Assembly (NCBI GenBank): GCA_022843805.1
Contig: JALHMY010000005.1
Coordinates: 62,001 to 126,000 of the forward strand
Reading direction: 5' to 3'
DNA: 64,000 nucleotides
Origin: Fuerstiella sp.
Lineage (GTDB): Bacteria > Planctomycetota > Planctomycetia > Planctomycetales > Planctomycetaceae
In this document: positions 39,451-47,214 of the stretch, in pieces
How positions within the stretch are numbered: the stretch's first letter is position 1
How the letters are laid out: every line of letters begins with the position of its first letter
Notes under the pieces: generated by a model
What the model saw: only the letters and a program-made list of their open reading frames with translations
What the model was told of the DNA's origin: nothing
The model's database searches: none
Translations under genes and position numbers: made by a program

Positions 39451-42400
39451 TCACAGACTTCGAAATCGACGCCCATTTTTCCGGGGATTCAGCTGTTCAA
39501 GAGTCGCGTTTACCTGCGGATTTGTCAGAAGCTGGCTGACTTCCGAATGACTTTGCAGCCTGATCATCAGCCCGCCGGAGATCACGCTTCCCTGTGTATT
39601 CAGGCGATTCAAAAAGCGAATGGCTGCTGCTTCATACGCCTGCTTTTTGTCCGGTGTTCGGCTGTTTCCGGCCGCCTCGCCGCATGCGATCAGCAGATCG
39701 ATCATACCCTGCCCTGGAGACAAACTGCTTTCGGCCAGGCGGTCAGTTTCCTGCAATGAAGTCGCCGTTTCAGGTTCCCCCGGGCTCTGTGCGTTTGTTT
39801 CAGAGTGTACCAGACACCGCAGCAGTGAAGCTCGATGTTCAGGCGACGGATTCACAAGGACGGCTTCTTCGCAGATTCTGCGAGCATCCGGATATTGCCC
39901 CTGACACAACAGCAATCGCCCCTCAGCAAGTCGCAGGTTACCGAACAGTCTCCGGGTCGCGATATCATGCCAGGTATCCGGGAGACGGGTCCCGGCTGCC
40001 ATGATTGCTGATTCGGCGGCCGTAAGCTGCTGCCGGGCAGCGGAAAAGAGTCCGGCGTCAGTCAGGGATTGCCCGGTTTCCGTCAGCGTTGCGATAATCC
40101 CGTCAGGTCCCTTTAACCTTTCAGGATCAAGCTCCCCAATGCGTTTCAGCAGCAACAACTGCGTCTGCTGGTGAATTCTACTTTCTTCGGGGAGGTCAAA
40201 CATCTGGTAAACGCTGGCGAGCGACGCGTGACAGTCTGCGGCCTTTTCCAGTATTCTGACCTGCGAGATCTGCTCGATCGGCAGGTCTGTGGCAATCATT
40301 GAGGCTGTTGCGATTTGATCGCGGGCATCCTGATTTCTGTTCGTCTGCCACAGCAACCTCGCAAGCTGTGCTCGCCCCCGGATCTGTCCGATGGATTGTA
40401 CAATCTGCACTGTATTGCTGGAGCGAGTTCCCGGGGACTGAAGCCACTGCTGAAGCAGCTCGAGGGATTCCGATGTGTTGTCCTGTCGATGAAGGATTTC
40501 AGCCAGATCAAAGTACAGTTCCTGCACGACCCACGATGCTGTCGCTGCGTCAGGATATGCGGACTTAAAACTGTCAGCCTGCTTCACGGCATTTCGAAGA
40601 GTTGTTTCCGCTTCTGCATAAAATTCGCAGTCAGCATGGATGCACGCCAGTTTACGTCGGGCCGAGATGATGGTTTCGAACAGCCCGGCCACATTCGAAG
40701 AATCTTTAACAGTTTTTTCCATGGAGTAGATGGCCGAGCGATAATCGTCGGCCGCCTGATAGAACTGGCTGCGGATACAATAAATTTCTGCTCGCCGGAT
40801 TCGCATCAACGCGTCGATTTCGTGATACTCTTCCGAAAGCGGAAACTGAGAAGTGAGGTTCCCGGAAATCTCAATGGCTTCCGACAGATCCTGCAGTCCT
40901 GGTTCGATTCGATCGAAGTACTCGTGTGCGAATGAGCGTCGATAACAGGCCTGGACAAAGCCTTTCTGAAATTCAGCCAAAGGCGAATGCTCACGAAGCA
41001 GTCTTCGATAGCAGTCAACCGCTCGTTCGGAATAATCGTCATGCCGGGAGAAATCGACGGCCCTTTGGCAGAGATCGCTGAGTGAGCAGCAGGTTTCTGC
41101 CAGTTCGTGAAGGACGCGCTGTTCTGCAGGTTCCCTCACGATAAGCTGTTCAAGGACTTCATTCGCTTTTAAGAGAGATTCAGTTGCAGTTTCGCGACGG
41201 GTCGTGGCGGCCTGAAGTTTTCCGCGAATGCTGTAAAGTCGGGCCAGTGACAGCAAAGTGTCTGATGACTGCTGATTGCCGGACTGCTGACCAGATGATT
41301 CGATAACAGCAATGCAGTCTGAGGCGGTTTGTTCAGCGGCGTGCAGTTCGCCGTCTCTCTGCAGTGATTCGCATAAAGCGAGTGATGTTGAGGCGAGCTG
41401 GTCAAGAAATTCGGCTCGTCCCGTTTCCTTCAGCAACTGTGAGCAGATCTCGGCAGCCGCCTCAAAGTTTCTGCGAGATTCATACTCTTCTGACAGACGC
41501 ACAAGGATATGGCCGCTCTGTTCAAACCCCTCGGCACGAATGGCACGGCTTTCTGCAGAATTTCCCTGCAGGGCAGACAGCGCTTTGTACTGTTGCAGAA
41601 TGTTGTTCAGGAAAGTCCGCTCTTCCTCGGTGAGTGCAGTTTGCGAATTGAATCTTTGGGTAATGACTTCATCAAAAAGGGCTCGCAGTGCCTGTAATGC
41701 CTGAACACTTGCGGATTGGGACGTTCGGACGACCGTTGCCAGCTGGTTATTGTTCTCCTGCAGTTGCTGATTCTTCGAGTTCAGGATCAGCGAGCCTGTG
41801 GAACCGGCAATCAGGATTACGAAAGCGGCGGCTATAATGGCCGCCGTGGCCCTGGGGCGCTTGCGAATCATTCGACCGCACCGCACCGTAATCGGATCGC
41901 GCAGAATACTGATGGATTCGCCGGCAAGATAACGCTCAATATCCTGCGCCATGGCAAGTGCCGACGGATATCTTTGCTCAGCGTTTGCTGCCATTGCATG
42001 GCGACAAATGGCTTCCATCGGCCTGGGAATCAGACGGTTCACTTCATGAGCCGAAATCCGTTCGTTCCGCTGAAGACGATTTATATAGGGGAGAAGACCG
42101 CCTGATCTCATCACAATCGTCCCGGTCAGCAGCGTGAACAGTGTCGCTCCGAGGGAATAAACATCGGACCGAACGTCAGTTTCTTCGGCCTTCCCGAAGA
42201 GCTGTTCGGGGCTTGCGAATGCCGGAGTCCCCAGAATTTGCCCGGATAACGTGTTCCTGTCTTCAGGAGCAATGGCGGCCAGCCCGCTCGTTAATTCACG
42301 ATCCACTCGAGGGCTGAAGTTGCCACCGTTTGGACTGTCTGGCCACAGCGATCGCCGCATGGCCTGAAGGTTTTCCATCGGTTCATCCAGAACTTTTGCA

Positions 42401-42942
42401 AGTCCCCAGTCCAGCAGCAGAACTTCCCCGAACGGCCCGATAATAATATTTGCCGGTTTGATATCCCGATGAATCACGTTCTGTTCATGCGCAAAGGCAA
42501 CGATGTTACAAACGCTCACAAATTTGTGAAGGAGGAGTCGGAATTCGACTGACTGAAAGAACTGCTCATCCTTTATCACAGTGACCGCGTCTGCAGCAGA
42601 ATGAACATCGTGGATCGCCATCTGCATGGTTCTGCCATCCACAAATCGCATGACATAGAATGGGAGGTCAGTACCCTCGGATGTCATAGCGTGAACGGGA
42701 ATAATTCCCGGATGATCCAGTCGACCTGTGATTTCGGCTTCCCGTTCAAATCGTGCTGATTGTTCAGCCGTTTGATACTTTGAACGAGGAAACTTGATTG
42801 CGACCCGCCGCTGCAGCTCGGCATCAGTGGCCAGATACACGCATCCAAGTCCTCCCTGGGCGTGAAATCGCTCAATGCGATATTCGGTATCAACCTGCAC
42901 ATCCTGAGGGACGATCAATTCGTCAGGGTTTGGTGGTGCCAT
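39451..42942 (-). CDS. transmembrane Ser/Thr protein kinase with TPR-like sensor domain
   Basis: This 1163-aa kinase has an intact catalytic domain (about 20-340): P-loop-like AQGGLGCVYLA, VAIK with K50, E68 in REAEITGRLDHPGI, HRDIKPAN with D160, DWG with D178 (the DWG variant is common in planctomycetes) and SPEQ at 244-247. A helix (ATAAIIAAAFVILIAGSTG, about 365-387) follows, and then some 770 residues of alpha-helical repeats with TPR-like spacing, probably extracytoplasmic. The start overlaps the pseudokinase gene by 20 bp. It is the third gene of the sigma-pseudokinase-kinase operon, so its partner is likely the pseudokinase and its output the sigma factor. Confidence 0.92.
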   Translation of the reverse strand: MAPPNPDELIVPQDVQVDTEYRIERFHAQGGLGCVYLATDAELQRRVAIKFPRSKYQTAEQSARFEREAEITGRLDHPGIIPVHAMTSEGTDLPFYVMRFVDGRTMQMAIHDVHSAADAVTVIKDEQFFQSVEFRLLLHKFVSVCNIVAFAHEQNVIHRDIKPANIIIGPFGEVLLLDWGLAKVLDEPMENLQAMRRSLWPDSPNGGNFSPRVDRELTSGLAAIAPEDRNTLSGQILGTPAFASPEQLFGKAEETDVRSDVYSLGATLFTLLTGTIVMRSGGLLPYINRLQRNERISAHEVNRLIPRPMEAICRHAMAANAEQRYPSALAMAQDIERYLAGESISILRDPITVRCGRMIRKRPRATAAIIAAAFVILIAGSTGSLILNSKNQQLQENNNQLATVVRTSQSASVQALQALRALFDEVITQRFNSQTALTEEERTFLNNILQQYKALSALQGNSAESRAIRAEGFEQSGHILVRLSEEYESRRNFEAAAEICSQLLKETGRAEFLDQLASTSLALCESLQRDGELHAAEQTASDCIAVIESSGQQSGNQQSSDTLLSLARLYSIRGKLQAATTRRETATESLLKANEVLEQLIVREPAEQRVLHELAETCCSLSDLCQRAVDFSRHDDYSERAVDCYRRLLREHSPLAEFQKGFVQACYRRSFAHEYFDRIEPGLQDLSEAIEISGNLTSQFPLSEEYHEIDALMRIRRAEIYCIRSQFYQAADDYRSAIYSMEKTVKDSSNVAGLFETIISARRKLACIHADCEFYAEAETTLRNAVKQADSFKSAYPDAATASWVVQELYFDLAEILHRQDNTSESLELLQQWLQSPGTRSSNTVQIVQSIGQIRGRAQLARLLWQTNRNQDARDQIATASMIATDLPIEQISQVRILEKAADCHASLASVYQMFDLPEESRIHQQTQLLLLKRIGELDPERLKGPDGIIATLTETGQSLTDAGLFSAARQQLTAAESAIMAAGTRLPDTWHDIATRRLFGNLRLAEGRLLLCQGQYPDARRICEEAVLVNPSPEHRASLLRCLVHSETNAQSPGEPETATSLQETDRLAESSLSPGQGMIDLLIACGEAAGNSRTPDKKQAYEAAAIRFLNRLNTQGSVISGGLMIRLQSHSEVSQLLTNPQVNATLEQLNPRKNGRRFRSL

Positions 42943-45900
42943 CGTGAATCGGATTTACTGTGAAGGATTCAGATAACTCACTGAGCAATGTCAGGGTGTA
43001 TGCCGCAGTCTTTGAGATCGCTGACTCTGTTCGAAGCCAGAACTCCCGTATGTTTGCATAGAATGGGGACTCCCGACCGGTACCGGCTGGTCCATGGGAG
43101 TCTTTATCAGCGTCCAGACCGTCAATCCGTTTGAGCTGCTGCATGAACTCCGGGTATCTGCGGAGACTGCTGATCTCGATATGTCTTCGCAGTTCTTTTG
43201 TTGATGCCTTCCCGGGGACGTGGCCGGTAGCGATCGCATGCTGGAGCAGTCTTGCTGCCATTGCACTCAGTTCTTCCTTTACCGCGGGGTTCCGGATTCG
43301 TCGGTGTGCTGCTCCGCAGGCATAGACCAGATTGAGAACAGGCCATGCTTCAGGATTTCCTTCACCGACAATGCTATAAACTTCATCCAATACCTCGCCA
43401 GGCTGCATCAGTGCAAGACAATAGCATCGCTGAGAACGATTCTCGACCGAGGGATTCAGACGTACTGAAAGGTCAAATTTTTCCATGGCTTCCTTAAACA
43501 TGAGTTGTTGAAACAGCACACCGCCCAGCGCCTGAACAACATCGCCCTGAATTTCCTTAAGGGAAGGCTCGTCGGGGAATCGCGTCATCGCCGACACCAC
43601 AACTTTCTCTGCTTCTGTGAACCGCTGAGTTGCCATGTCGAAGGAACGGCGGTTCAGCCAGCGATAACCCACCAGCAACAGGGCCTTTACGTGTTTCTTC
43701 TGATAACCGACGTGCTCGGGCAGCTGAGCGGCGAGGTCTGCCCTGATTTCTATGAAGCGATGCTGCTGTTCCATCGCCTGATCCGGGCAATTCAGTGCAT
43801 CGTAAGTCTCGCTCAGGAAATTCACTTCCGCTGCCAGTCGGTTAAGCATTTCAATGTGCTGACTGTATGCGACTTTGAACTCCTGCGCCAGCAGGTCTGC
43901 CTTGTTTGCTTCCTGCCTGGCTTCGGCCAGCATTCCCATATCCTTGAATACCAGTGCGAGCCGCACATGTGTCTGTATGGGATTAAAACGCGACGACGAA
44001 GTCTCATCGGAGACCTGAGCTTTTCGAAAAGTGTCGAGGGCATTCAGGAGCAAATCACGAGCTTCCGTCAATCGGCCCTGCTTTCGCAATACACCACTGA
44101 GATTGACCTGAGTGCAGGCAGCCGAATATCGACAGCCTGGCAGTTCGGGGAATCGTGCATTCATTTGCTCGGCGAGAGCAAAGGCTTCCCGGTAAGTCGC
44201 TTCTGCAGCTGTATGATCGTTTAACTGTTTCTGAGCACTGCCAAGTTCAGAAAGTGCGGTCAGCATTCGCACATGGCTGTCCGCCGCATCCGGCAGTTCT
44301 TTGACGATCGGCCGAATGATGCTGAGTGCTTCATCAAGATCCGCTTCAGAAAGTCGGTGTTCGAATTGCTGGAAATAGCAGTTGTTTCTGGCGACATACA
44401 GCTGTGCCAGCAGCAACTTCCAGGAAACAGCAAGCGGGTACTGCTGACAAAGAATTTTGATCCTGTCAATTGCCTCGGTAAGTTCATCAATTCCCTGTGC
44501 GGTTTCGTCAAGCATAATTCTTAAATGCGAATGGCTGAGTATCGCATTCGCCAGTCCGGCAGCTGCGGAATTTTCGTCCGGAAAGTGGCCTGTCAGTGAT
44601 CTCTGCCGGTCGATCGCCAGTTTTGAACTATCAACCTGCAGTTTGAACAGACCGAGGTGTCTGGCGGTCTCGCTGATACGACTGGTAACACTGGCCTGCA
44701 GATACCTTTCAGCGTCGCTGCCGGAATCTTCCTGAAGCAGGCTGCTGACGATGTCCTGAGCTCGCTGATAACTGTTCATCGCGTCCTTCCAGCGTCGCTG
44801 TTCAGAATGTACGTTTCCCAGGATCTGATACAATTCTGCCAGACGGCTTTTCTGATCGGATGAGATGTTTCCGAAAGTTTCAGCATTCGTTGGCGCAAAA
44901 AGGGTTATGGCCCTGACCAGTCCTGCCTCAGCGCTCTCCAGCCTTCCAAGACGCAGAAGTCCGGTTGACAGTTCCTTTAGTGCGTTTGCGAGTTCACTTC
45001 GAAAGCCACCGTTTTCAGAGCTGCTGGCGAGCTTTTCATAGAGCTCCGTGGCATCCTGCAGACTGCTGACAGCCATCGGCAGCTCCGACAACTGCAGCTG
45101 GATTCTCCCAGTCTGCAAAAGCCCCTCAGCCTGAATCGCCTGACTTTCGATGAACTTTCCCTGCAGTTGGGCAAACGCAGCATATTGTTTACCAATACGG
45201 CTGAGAAACTCCTTCTCTTCTTTACTCAGATCGGACTCTTCCTGGAAGCTGCTGACAACAAAGTCGTCAGTGAGTGTTCGCAGTGCAGCCATTGTCTGTC
45301 GGCTGGCAAGCTGCGACTCTCGAACGGCCACTTCAAGTGTCGCGCTGTTGAGTGAAAGCTGGCTGTTGGTTCTTCCAAGCAAAAGCGAGATTGCAAGGCT
45401 CGCCAGCAAGCCCACGAAAATTGCCGCAGGAACGGCTGAAAACACGGCCGGTCTTCTGCGAACGGAGCGACGCAGCCTGTCCCACACCGAATCCGTGTGC
45501 GCACTCACTCGCTCATCGGCAAGAAAACGTTCCAGATCTCTCGCCAGCTCCAGCGGCGTCGAATATTGCAGCTCCGTGTCCACGGAGACGGCTTTGCAAA
45601 CAATAGCATCCAGCGGAGCTGGTACGCCCTGGCGGCATCCTTCCTGTAACGTGCTGACATTGGCATCGCCTGAACTGCCCGGTTGAAGCGGCACAGGTGG
45701 CTGGCCATACCTCTCGAGCAGCAAACCTCCGGTCAGCAAAGCATATAATGTCGTTCCAATCGCGCGAATGTCTGAACGCTCGTCGTAGTCCGGGTGCTCA
45801 CCGACGGTGGATGCATTCCCCCAGTTGATCAGCAGCACTTCACCAAATGCTCCCAGCTGAATGGCGGTCGGACTGATATCGCCGTGAATCACGCCGTTTT

Positions 45901-46546
45901 CATGAGCATAGGCAACGATATTGCAGACTGAGATCAGATTCTGCAGCAGTCTGCGAAATTCGAAGCTGCTGTAGAACGCCGGTTTGCTCGGAACGACGTT
46001 TGGAGAGTTCAGCGATTCAATGACTGCCTGAAGTGTCGTTCCGGTGACGTGTCGCCTGACAAAGCAGGGGTCAGACGGATCATGTTTCAGGGCGTGGACT
46101 GGTACAATTCCAGGATGATCAAGTCGTCCTGTAATTCTTGCTTCTCGTTCGAAGCGACAGAGCTGTTCGGAGGAGAGCGGGGGACTGCAGGGAAAACTGA
46201 TGGCAACCCGACGTTGCAGAACAGGGTCGAAAGCGATGCCAGCCTCCCGGGGGCCAGCGTCTCCACGGCAATCCTCGATCCGGTAACGTGCGGACACGCG
46301 GACAACGGACAAAGGCTGAAGAAAGTTCAGCCGGGGCTCATCAGTGTGTGAAGTGCTCTTATTTCCATCTGAATGAAAACCGAAGTGCGACTCGACTGCC
46401 TGAATTGCGTGAATGGTCCATTTGAGTTCCGCAAGCAGTTCTGGCTGGTCAGCACACAGTTCTTCCGGGGATACAGGGTCTCCCGAGTCCCGGCGTTCTT
46501 CCCAGAGAAAGAGCAGATCATCCAGAGTGTTCATCAGGCGGCTCAC
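42923..46546 (-). CDS. TPR-rich transmembrane pseudokinase
   Basis: This 1207-aa protein is a paralogue of the neighbouring kinase, with the same order: kinase-like domain (about 85-350), one membrane helix (VFSAVPAAIFVGLLASLAIS) and a long helical repeat region. Its kinase domain lacks every catalytic motif: the P-loop is CRGDAGPREAGIAF, the VAIK Lys is Ser (VAISF, S117), HRDIKP is HGDISP (221-226), DWG is NWG (241-243), and the activation loop with its SPEQ segment is deleted, the chain going from NWG almost directly to DERSDIRAIGTTLYALLTG. E135 remains. It starts with GTG (46546) that overlaps the sigma-factor stop by 4 bp; ATG 46534 is an alternative. A scaffold or allosteric role is the likeliest interpretation. 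Confidence 0.9.
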   Translation of the reverse strand: MSRLMNTLDDLLFLWEERRDSGDPVSPEELCADQPELLAELKWTIHAIQAVESHFGFHSDGNKSTSHTDEPRLNFLQPLSVVRVSARYRIEDCRGDAGPREAGIAFDPVLQRRVAISFPCSPPLSSEQLCRFEREARITGRLDHPGIVPVHALKHDPSDPCFVRRHVTGTTLQAVIESLNSPNVVPSKPAFYSSFEFRRLLQNLISVCNIVAYAHENGVIHGDISPTAIQLGAFGEVLLINWGNASTVGEHPDYDERSDIRAIGTTLYALLTGGLLLERYGQPPVPLQPGSSGDANVSTLQEGCRQGVPAPLDAIVCKAVSVDTELQYSTPLELARDLERFLADERVSAHTDSVWDRLRRSVRRRPAVFSAVPAAIFVGLLASLAISLLLGRTNSQLSLNSATLEVAVRESQLASRQTMAALRTLTDDFVVSSFQEESDLSKEEKEFLSRIGKQYAAFAQLQGKFIESQAIQAEGLLQTGRIQLQLSELPMAVSSLQDATELYEKLASSSENGGFRSELANALKELSTGLLRLGRLESAEAGLVRAITLFAPTNAETFGNISSDQKSRLAELYQILGNVHSEQRRWKDAMNSYQRAQDIVSSLLQEDSGSDAERYLQASVTSRISETARHLGLFKLQVDSSKLAIDRQRSLTGHFPDENSAAAGLANAILSHSHLRIMLDETAQGIDELTEAIDRIKILCQQYPLAVSWKLLLAQLYVARNNCYFQQFEHRLSEADLDEALSIIRPIVKELPDAADSHVRMLTALSELGSAQKQLNDHTAAEATYREAFALAEQMNARFPELPGCRYSAACTQVNLSGVLRKQGRLTEARDLLLNALDTFRKAQVSDETSSSRFNPIQTHVRLALVFKDMGMLAEARQEANKADLLAQEFKVAYSQHIEMLNRLAAEVNFLSETYDALNCPDQAMEQQHRFIEIRADLAAQLPEHVGYQKKHVKALLLVGYRWLNRRSFDMATQRFTEAEKVVVSAMTRFPDEPSLKEIQGDVVQALGGVLFQQLMFKEAMEKFDLSVRLNPSVENRSQRCYCLALMQPGEVLDEVYSIVGEGNPEAWPVLNLVYACGAAHRRIRNPAVKEELSAMAARLLQHAIATGHVPGKASTKELRRHIEISSLRRYPEFMQQLKRIDGLDADKDSHGPAGTGRESPFYANIREFWLRTESAISKTAAYTLTLLSELSESFTVNPIHDGTTKP

Positions 46547-47214
46547 TCAGGGAACTGTTGAAGGTTTCCGTCGTGATGAGATCCATCATCGAGCAGATCA
46601 CGATACAAACGCACCCGTACCGTTTTCCATTTGCGGCCCAGAGTTCGCAGGGGAATGCCCAGAAGGCCGGACGCCTCGGCCATTGTGAGACCCTGATACC
46701 AGAGCAGATCGAAGAGACAGCGATCCTCATCCGGCAAACGTTCAATATAATTATGGAACTCAGTCCACTGACTCAGCTTCTGCGGATTGAATGTGTCATT
46801 GTCATCGGGTGAAGGGCCACAGGCGGGGGCACCGGAATCCGATAAAGATGATCCGGGAGTCTCCATCGACGCAAGACCGGGCCGATAGCCAAAGTGGTGA
46901 CGCGAAAGATCAATCAGTTCCCGTCGAATCAGGCAGGCGGCCAGACGAAAAAATTCCACAGGTGTCTCAGGCTGACAGCCTGCCAGGCATTTCCACAGCC
47001 GCATTACAGAATTCTGCAGCAAATCGTCTGTTTCTTCCAGATTTCTGACGGAAGGAATATCGCCGAGGATGCGACGGGCGAGCAGACGAAGCCGCTGCAT
47101 GGAAATGTCCAGCAGTTCCCGCCGGGCTGAATCATCGCCGTGTCGATGACGCTCCAGCCAATGCCGTACTGCGATCGTCGAGTCCGACGCAAACGGTTCC
47201 TTTGCTGAGGTCAT
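46543..47214 (-). CDS. ECF-type RNA polymerase sigma factor linked to protein kinases
   Basis: This 223-aa sigma factor has region 2 (RRELLDISMQRLRLLARRIL and DDLLQNSVMRLWKCL) and region 4 (YIERLPDEDRCLFDLLWYQG, TMAEASGLLGIPLRTLGRKW). The N-terminal region-2 block has the planctomycete-type sequence of sigma factors encoded beside Ser/Thr kinases, where phosphorylation rather than an anti-sigma factor is thought to control activity. No anti-sigma gene is present. Stop codon and pseudokinase start overlap (GTGA). ATG 47214 is chosen; TTG 47268 would extend it by 18 residues. Confidence 0.88.
   Translation of the reverse strand: MTSAKEPFASDSTIAVRHWLERHRHGDDSARRELLDISMQRLRLLARRILGDIPSVRNLEETDDLLQNSVMRLWKCLAGCQPETPVEFFRLAACLIRRELIDLSRHHFGYRPGLASMETPGSSLSDSGAPACGPSPDDNDTFNPQKLSQWTEFHNYIERLPDEDRCLFDLLWYQGLTMAEASGLLGIPLRTLGRKWKTVRVRLYRDLLDDGSHHDGNLQQFPE

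Follow-up and report, generated by a model that had tools for sequence, protein, structure and literature searches.

A pseudokinase gene between a sigma factor gene and a kinase gene in a planctomycete genome, and its possible part in a paired receptor

The Locus

Three overlapping genes on the minus strand of contig JALHMY010000005.1 of the planctomycete Fuerstiella sp. (assembly GCA_022843805.1; 9.2 Mb, here genome G000) encode, in order of transcription, an extracytoplasmic function (ECF) sigma factor, a kinase-like protein with lost catalytic residues (P0002) and a Hanks-type kinase of the same family (P0001). They lie in a stretch of 64,000 nucleotides, G000:C5:62001-126000, which is called the window below and from whose first letter all locus positions are counted. 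The sigma gene (46543-47214) yields 223 residues from the ATG at 47214, and its stop overlaps the GTG start of P0002 by 4 bp (46543-46546). P0002 (1207 residues, 42923-46546) in turn overlaps the start of P0001 by 20 bp (42923-42942), and P0001 (1163 residues, 39451-42942) has its kinase domain almost at the start. An earlier note on this DNA, made from the sequence alone, had given the same coordinates, strand, overlaps and sigma start codon, all of which proved correct. Its description of the middle product as a full-length homologue of the third also holds, with 44% identity over the first ~430 residues and 24% over the ectodomain.

As the note had further proposed, both products combine a membrane helix with a long TPR-like region. 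Each has one strong hydrophobic stretch (P0002, residues ~372-395, 45362-45433; P0001, residues ~366-388, 41779-41847), which is preceded by an Arg-rich stretch. The TPR-like ectodomains that follow comprise 776 residues in P0002 (residues 431-1206, 42926-45256) and 763 in P0001 (residues 401-1163, 39454-41742), with Pfam TPR matches in both. Only the ectodomain of P0002 was modelled; AlphaFold2 predicts it as an all-helical hairpin array (mean predicted local distance difference test score, pLDDT, 74). According to the positive-inside rule, the Arg-rich flank of a membrane helix lies on the cytosolic side; the kinase parts are therefore predicted to be cytosolic and the TPR arrays to lie outside.

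Dismantling of the Kinase Site in P0002

The kinase domain of P0001 (41908-42885) matches Pfam PF00069 with 98 bits and bears every residue by which Hanks-type Ser/Thr kinases are recognized, that is, the VAIK Lys, the HRD Asp, the catalytic-loop Asn, the DFG Asp and the APE Glu, in the motifs VAIK, HRDIKPAN, DWG and GTPAFASPEQ. The protein is likely an active Hanks-type kinase, to judge by this complete motif set, which the earlier note had also recorded.

The corresponding domain of P0002 (residues 78-345, 45512-46315) is altered throughout its catalytic site. Compared with its homologues, the P-loop region reads RGDAGPREAG, VAIK has become VAIS, HRDIKPAN has become HGDISPTA and DWG has become NWG. 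Two P-loop glycine positions, the VAIK Lys, the Lys and Asn of the catalytic loop and the DFG Asp are lost. In addition, the chain runs from the DFG region almost directly into the αF region, so that the activation segment is gone; its missing site falls at residues ~250-255, at the junction of NWGNAS and DERSD (45782-45799). The catalytic-loop Asp (in HGD) and the αC Glu (E135) are retained. Since these two residues persist, the former claim that every catalytic motif had been lost is slightly too strong, and it stands for the P-loop, the VAIK Lys, the catalytic-loop Lys and Asn, the DFG Asp and the activation segment.

To place these changes on a common scale, conservation was counted automatically over 90 other kinase domains of G000, giving 16 columns conserved to at least 95% and 39 columns conserved to 70-95%. 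P0002 is changed at 10 of the 16 near-invariant columns and P0001 at none, and no domain among the 90 others is changed at more than four. At the less conserved columns, 18 of 39 are changed in P0002 and 11 of 39 in P0001 (21 and 28 kept, respectively). Losses that fall more heavily on the most conserved columns (10/16) than on the less conserved ones (18/39) are the opposite of what plain wear would give. This recount replaces an earlier test in which catalytic and structural positions had been sorted by hand post hoc (13/18 vs 6/28, p=0.0009). As judged from the sequence, the kinase site of P0002 has been dismantled by targeted loss, beyond chance or wear.

A kinase fold is still predicted. 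The Pfam Pkinase model scores 29 bits against P0002, under the family cut-off of 31.7, and PknB is the best match (E 5e-13) of the AlphaFold2 model that was computed for residues 1-430 from a three-row alignment and is of moderate confidence (mean pLDDT 62). Bacterial pseudokinases are defined by a kinase fold with losses among the residues K, D1 and D2; in P0002 the K and the Asp of DFG are lost and the Asp of HGD is kept.

An N-Terminal Domain and Reciprocal Loss

P0002 opens with a domain of about 58 residues (46373-46546) of the pattern LDDLLxLWEE...VSPEELC...PELLxEL, which has no Pfam match and no counterpart in P0001. The open frame of P0001 extends four codons beyond its ATG reading (1167 residues), and the ~460 bases that precede it show the motif in none of their frames. 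The orthologous kinases of three related genomes (G053, G158 and G147) carry both the N-terminal domain and the catalytic residues. Given that the orthologues unite what the trio divides between P0002 (the domain) and P0001 (the catalysis), the losses at this locus are reciprocal.

A profile built from six sequences (threshold E<0.01) was used to survey the domain across the genome. Kinase open reading frames (ORFs) were termed sigma-adjacent when within 700 bp of a PF07638 gene; only this sigma family was counted, and P0001 was included. The domain occurs in 8 of 25 sigma-adjacent kinase ORFs vs 2 of 76 other kinase ORFs of G000 (p=1.7e-4), and the enrichment persists without the three profile-building sequences (5/22 vs 2/76, p=0.006).

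Constraint and Origin of the Pair

Constraint along P0002 is uneven. Relative to the orthologue in G053, its N-terminal domain is 70% identical and the part between the N-lobe and DFG 58%, whereas the C-lobe reaches 35%, the surroundings of the membrane helix 41% and the ectodomain 24%. For P0001 and the same orthologue, the values are 68% from the N-lobe to DFG, 54% in the C-lobe, 52% in the membrane helix region and 29% in the ectodomain. The frame of P0002 is intact over 1207 codons, and its GC contents at the three codon positions (63/43/56) are close to those of P0001 (62/44/55) and of the sigma gene (65/45/55). The intact frame, the neighbour-like codon-position GC and the uneven constraint together argue against a free-drifting relic.

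In the ectodomain tree, which was midpoint-rooted and built without outgroup rows (C49, C2, G047_C111 and G080_C487 left out), P0001 groups with G053, G158 and G147 (98/98) and P0002 with G157_C175 (93/95). A recent tandem duplication followed by decay, the outcome that the earlier note had set against its own proposal, is not supported, as the frame is intact and a sister relationship of P0001 and P0002 is rejected both on the ectodomains (approximately unbiased test, p-AU 0.0007) and over the whole length (0.004; rows G158, G157_C436 and G080_C487 dropped from the whole-length tests). A clade of P0001, P0002, G053 and G147 to the exclusion of others is not rejected over the whole length (p 0.147), and when G158 joins such a clade, the ectodomains reject it weakly (p 0.039). 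By these tests the ectodomains of P0001 and P0002 are old paralogues and not a recent duplicate. The simplest account is that two older paralogues were brought together behind one sigma gene and that catalysis was then lost in one and the N-terminal domain in the other. Because P0002 is nearest to G053 in its front part and to G157 in its ectodomain, a chimaera with a G053-type front and a G157-type rear was also considered; the front tree leaves this idea undecided.

Distribution in Relatives

Relatives were searched in 170 genomes of the family and in a class sample of 397 genomes, two sets that overlap. Searched alone, the sigma factor is found in 7 of the 170 family genomes at E<=1e-50, including G000 itself and G047, whose copy is a paralogue with 50% identity. 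The five others (G053, G157, G158, G147 and G100; E<=1e-80) hold orthologues that are 63-71% identical. In all five, the orthologue adjoins a kinase of the P0001/P0002 family in which DWG is kept, which is one of the features by which the planctomycete ECF groups linked to Ser/Thr protein kinases (STPKs; ECF59, ECF61, ECF62 and ECF217) are recognized. Orientation varies: sigma precedes kinase in G053, G158 and G147, the two genes are divergent in G157, and kinase precedes sigma in G100. In the last case (G100:C538, L006) a gap of 191 bp separates the end of the kinase from the sigma gene that follows, and this reversed order indicates that the link between sigma factor and kinase outlives rearrangement.

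In G157, the kinase orthologue at G157:C436:2660-4037 (L049) is split between two reading frames, which change near the P-loop, just past the N-terminal domain; sequencing error and real break are indistinguishable here. A second G157 copy on G157:C175 (L048) is 93% identical to the C436 copy in the C-lobe.

P0002 as the query finds 7 of 170 genomes of the order, apparently identical with the family set, at E<=1e-50 and 7 genomes of the class sample at E<=1e-42; all of the latter belong to the family except G396, whose match has active motifs. The seven nearest genomes gave 26 matches at E<=1e-20, which fall on 23 loci. Nineteen of these hold VAxK or IALK together with HRD and DWG, two (G157:C175 and G100) lie on contigs that start after HRD and keep DWG, and two (G158:C138 and G147:C216) lie on contigs that do not reach these motifs. 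Contig ends truncate the loci of G100, G147, G157 and G158, which could thus conceal a second kinase; the G053 locus is intact and has a single kinase. A genome-contig search returned a single unrelated Arthrobacter locus with 25% identity.

The Sigma Factor and Its Surroundings

The sigma factor matches the ECF models, namely PF07638 with 56.5 bits (cut-off 21.1) and TIGR02937 with 50.9 bits (cut-off 42.9). Region 2.2 reads EETDDLLQN and is acidic, and in all six aligned orthologues TDDLLQN is preceded by EE or ED (EDTDDLLQN in G157). Members of ECF43 such as EcfP are recognized by a region 2.2 without the acidic DAED-type motif and with Thr instead, which is not what is found here. The EcfP mechanism relies on phosphorylation to provide a charge that is lacking; since this sigma factor keeps its acidic charges, that mechanism does not carry over to it. 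Thr62 (counted from the ATG at 47214, within ETDD) and other Ser/Thr residues are conserved in the six orthologues and are candidate phosphosites only.

Upstream of the sigma gene lies a divergent prolyl oligopeptidase gene, and an acyltransferase_3 gene follows 250 bp downstream of the trio on the same strand. Inspection of these two flanking genes revealed no anti-sigma-like gene directly beside the trio, in line with what the earlier note had said. Scans for regulatory sites were not used as support: terminator-like sites numbered 7 vs 8.7 in shuffles and promoter-like sites 8 vs 4.1 (sd 2.0), among the latter a minus-strand 9-of-12 site (47348-47319) situated ~105 bp ahead of the sigma ATG.

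Proposed Function and Alternatives

The best explanation, to which a probability of about one half is given, is that the three genes form one transcription unit and encode an ECF sigma factor together with the membrane receptor by which it is controlled, with P0001 and P0002 acting as a heteromer. In such a receptor, the two proteins would associate via their kinase-fold and membrane regions. P0002 would serve as a docking and allosteric subunit whose N-terminal domain probably contacts the sigma factor, P0001 would supply the phosphorylation, and the two ectodomains may respond to a single signal or to two. Phosphorylation, whether of the sigma factor or of P0002, would then alter the amount of free or active sigma factor. 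The subunits would have become mutually dependent through reciprocal loss once the older paralogues adjoined behind the sigma gene. The earlier note had proposed a receptor made of an active and an inactive half. The reciprocal losses fit a receptor in two parts and render the paired-receptor idea stronger than it was there. Also in favour are the targeted loss and uneven constraint in P0002, its intact frame, the enrichment of the N-terminal domain beside sigma genes, the separation of the two ectodomains in the tree, the overlapping frames and the kinases that adjoin the sigma orthologue in all five other genomes.

A more demanding form of this proposal can be advanced tentatively. Reciprocal loss may have given an obligate heteromer in which the dead subunit docks the sigma factor, the live one catalyses and neither signals alone; two divergent TPR ectodomains would thereby feed one ECF sigma factor. 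The word "obligate" had already been used in the earlier note for the pseudokinase partner. As a conserved arrangement this is unsupported, given that the five other genomes with a sigma orthologue each have a DWG-bearing kinase and no P0002-like gene was found in them, four of these five loci being truncated at contig ends; the single-genome distribution leaves "obligate" unproven.

Several results weigh against the proposed heteromer. The trio occurs in one genome only, which means that co-evolution of the pair is not measurable, and no P0002-like pseudokinase was found outside G000, either in the seven related genomes at E<=1e-20 or in G396. The N-terminal domain is not recognizable in 17 of the 25 sigma-adjacent kinases and is present in 2 of the 76 others, so that it cannot be needed for sigma control in general. 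The trees of the kinase region, in which P0002 has long branches, do not decide the origin of P0002 (p-AU of the sister relationship 0.32, 0.12 and 0.12). Finally, the C-lobe of P0002 is fast-evolving, with an end branch of 3.36, as partial decay would likewise give.

The main rival, which is considered rather unlikely, regards P0002 as an anti-sigma-like anchor that would hold the sigma factor at the membrane via its N-terminal domain and N-lobe. P0002 would be a substrate of P0001, phosphorylation would free the sigma factor, and no allostery between kinase and pseudokinase would be necessary. Such an anchor is consistent with the pattern of constraint, in which the N-terminal domain and N-lobe are the best conserved parts of P0002 and the C-lobe is relaxed, and also with the acidic ETDD of region 2.2, by which the sigma factor would need no added charge and may rather need restraint. 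The available text of PMC12599244 supplies a precedent in MviN, a pseudokinase that is phosphorylated by a kinase to recruit a partner. However, the single kinases of G053, G158 and G147 combine the N-terminal domain with all motifs beside the same sigma factor, which argues that the domain is not specific to restraint.

Alternatively, P0002 could be a paralogue on its way out whose frame survives by polar or TPR-only constraint, leaving P0001 alone to control the sigma factor or something else. The lack of P0002-like pseudokinases among the relatives searched agrees with this, as do the long P0002 branch, longest in the C-lobe, and the fact that pseudokinase-like ORFs are not rare in G000 (about 6 of ~100). 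Nevertheless, it appears improbable in view of a frame that has stayed intact despite old divergence from P0001, of normal codon-position GC, of the high identity of the N-terminal domain and N-lobe-to-DFG part to an orthologue in another genus, and of the heavier losses at the most conserved columns, the reverse of plain wear. Finally, P0002 might still be enzymatically active, as an atypical kinase or some other transferase that relies on the HGD aspartate, for which the retained Asp and αC Glu speak, as do the DLHK proteins, which retain the HRD Asp, lose other motifs and have putative activity according to the available part of PMC12599244; the loss of the VAIK Lys, the catalytic-loop Lys and Asn, the DFG Asp, two P-loop glycine positions and the activation segment makes this highly improbable.

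Relation to Known Systems

Sigma-kinase gene pairs are known in planctomycetes, as had been assumed: the available text of PMC8999054 names planctomycete examples of ECF59, ECF61, ECF62 and ECF217 under phosphorylation. The same source describes kinase control of sigma factors outside ECF43 as open and suggests that the other STPK-linked ECF groups may work differently, as the acidic charges of region 2.2 are kept. Like these pairs, the locus in G000 has an ECF gene beside a membrane Hanks-type kinase, no adjacent anti-sigma gene and an acidic region 2.2; unlike them, it has a catalytically dead receptor of the same family between sigma factor and kinase. A kinase gene adjoins the ECF sigma gene also in the ECF43 pairs EcfP-PknT (Vibrio) and EcfK-PknS (Xanthomonas). 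There, the sigma factor is phosphorylated by the neighbouring kinase; ECF43 members typically have no DAED-type charges and gain one by phosphorylation, as reported in the accessible parts of PMC8999054 and PMC13147305, whereas the sigma factor described here has ETDD. The word "pseudokinase" is absent from PMC13147305.

Bacterial pseudokinases are likewise established. In Myxococcus, 11 of 99 kinases are pseudokinases (PMC6791715, in the text available), and for one member of Planctomycetota the accessible part of PMC11032199 reports 610 putative Ser/Thr kinases, 525 of them with catalytic residues. Seven bacterial pseudokinase families have their own headings in PMC12599244, in whose main text the terms "sigma factor", "planctomyc" and "heterodimer" do not occur. 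Among the families in that source, ActPs3 (MviN, Mycobacterium) shares with P0002 the degraded motifs, the activation-loop deletion, a membrane region after the kinase domain and constraint on the N-lobe. P0002 differs in its TPR ectodomain and sigma linkage and in being nearer to PknB (68 bits, E 5e-18) and to its own-family kinases than to MviN (3uqc; 34.5 bits, E 1e-7). Membership of ActPs3 was rejected on these scores, and the likeness is attributed to convergence. Among the literature matches listed, in a search that mostly did not extend to subscription journals, no description of a sigma-pseudokinase-kinase operon was found, which agrees with the earlier statement that a pseudokinase partner was undescribed.

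In animals, receptor pairs of the HER3 type combine an active and an inactive kinase paralogue. Should the heteromer model hold, the pair in G000 would resemble them in this respect and would be a bacterial case of such pairing, wired to transcription. The differences are that the G000 pair is bacterial and of the Ser/Thr type, that its output would be a sigma factor and that its association is proposed from sequence. With catalysis and the putative docking domain in separate proteins, the two roles become separable for testing.

Other Kinases in the Genome

Ser/Thr kinase frames number about a hundred in G000, and roughly two dozen of these adjoin ECF sigma genes; the survey covered 109 PF00069 places, with one (contig C158) left out. 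In 23 clusters a PF07638 sigma gene has a kinase within 700 bp, and the trio alone among them has two consecutive kinases on the same side of the sigma gene. Only in another cluster, G000:C74:6947-13403 (L139), is the sigma gene flanked by kinase ORFs on both sides.

About 6 of ~100 ORFs, P0002 included, are pseudokinase-like after broken or misaligned rows were discarded. Ten rows had been flagged at first, and those discarded were the two halves of a C41 kinase, a truncated C111 frame and C11_96845, whose VAK lysine lies outside the aligned stretch. The C41 kinase gene (G000:C41:25849-29025, L119) consists of two adjacent frames split by a stop and is either a broken kinase or an assembly error. 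The other pseudokinase-like ORFs are C56:22584-25172 (L128), C24:22384-25005 (L109), C146:8348-9373 (L161), C9:108658-109731 and C9:110817-111890 (the last two L095), all of them more than 700 bp from any PF07638 sigma gene; in the C56 ORF VAVK is kept and HRD is replaced by HGA. The window also contains a third kinase, P0004 (58669-61752, plus strand, 1027 residues), with the motifs AALK, HRDIKPEN, DFG and APE and, following its membrane region, a Gly/Met-rich stretch.

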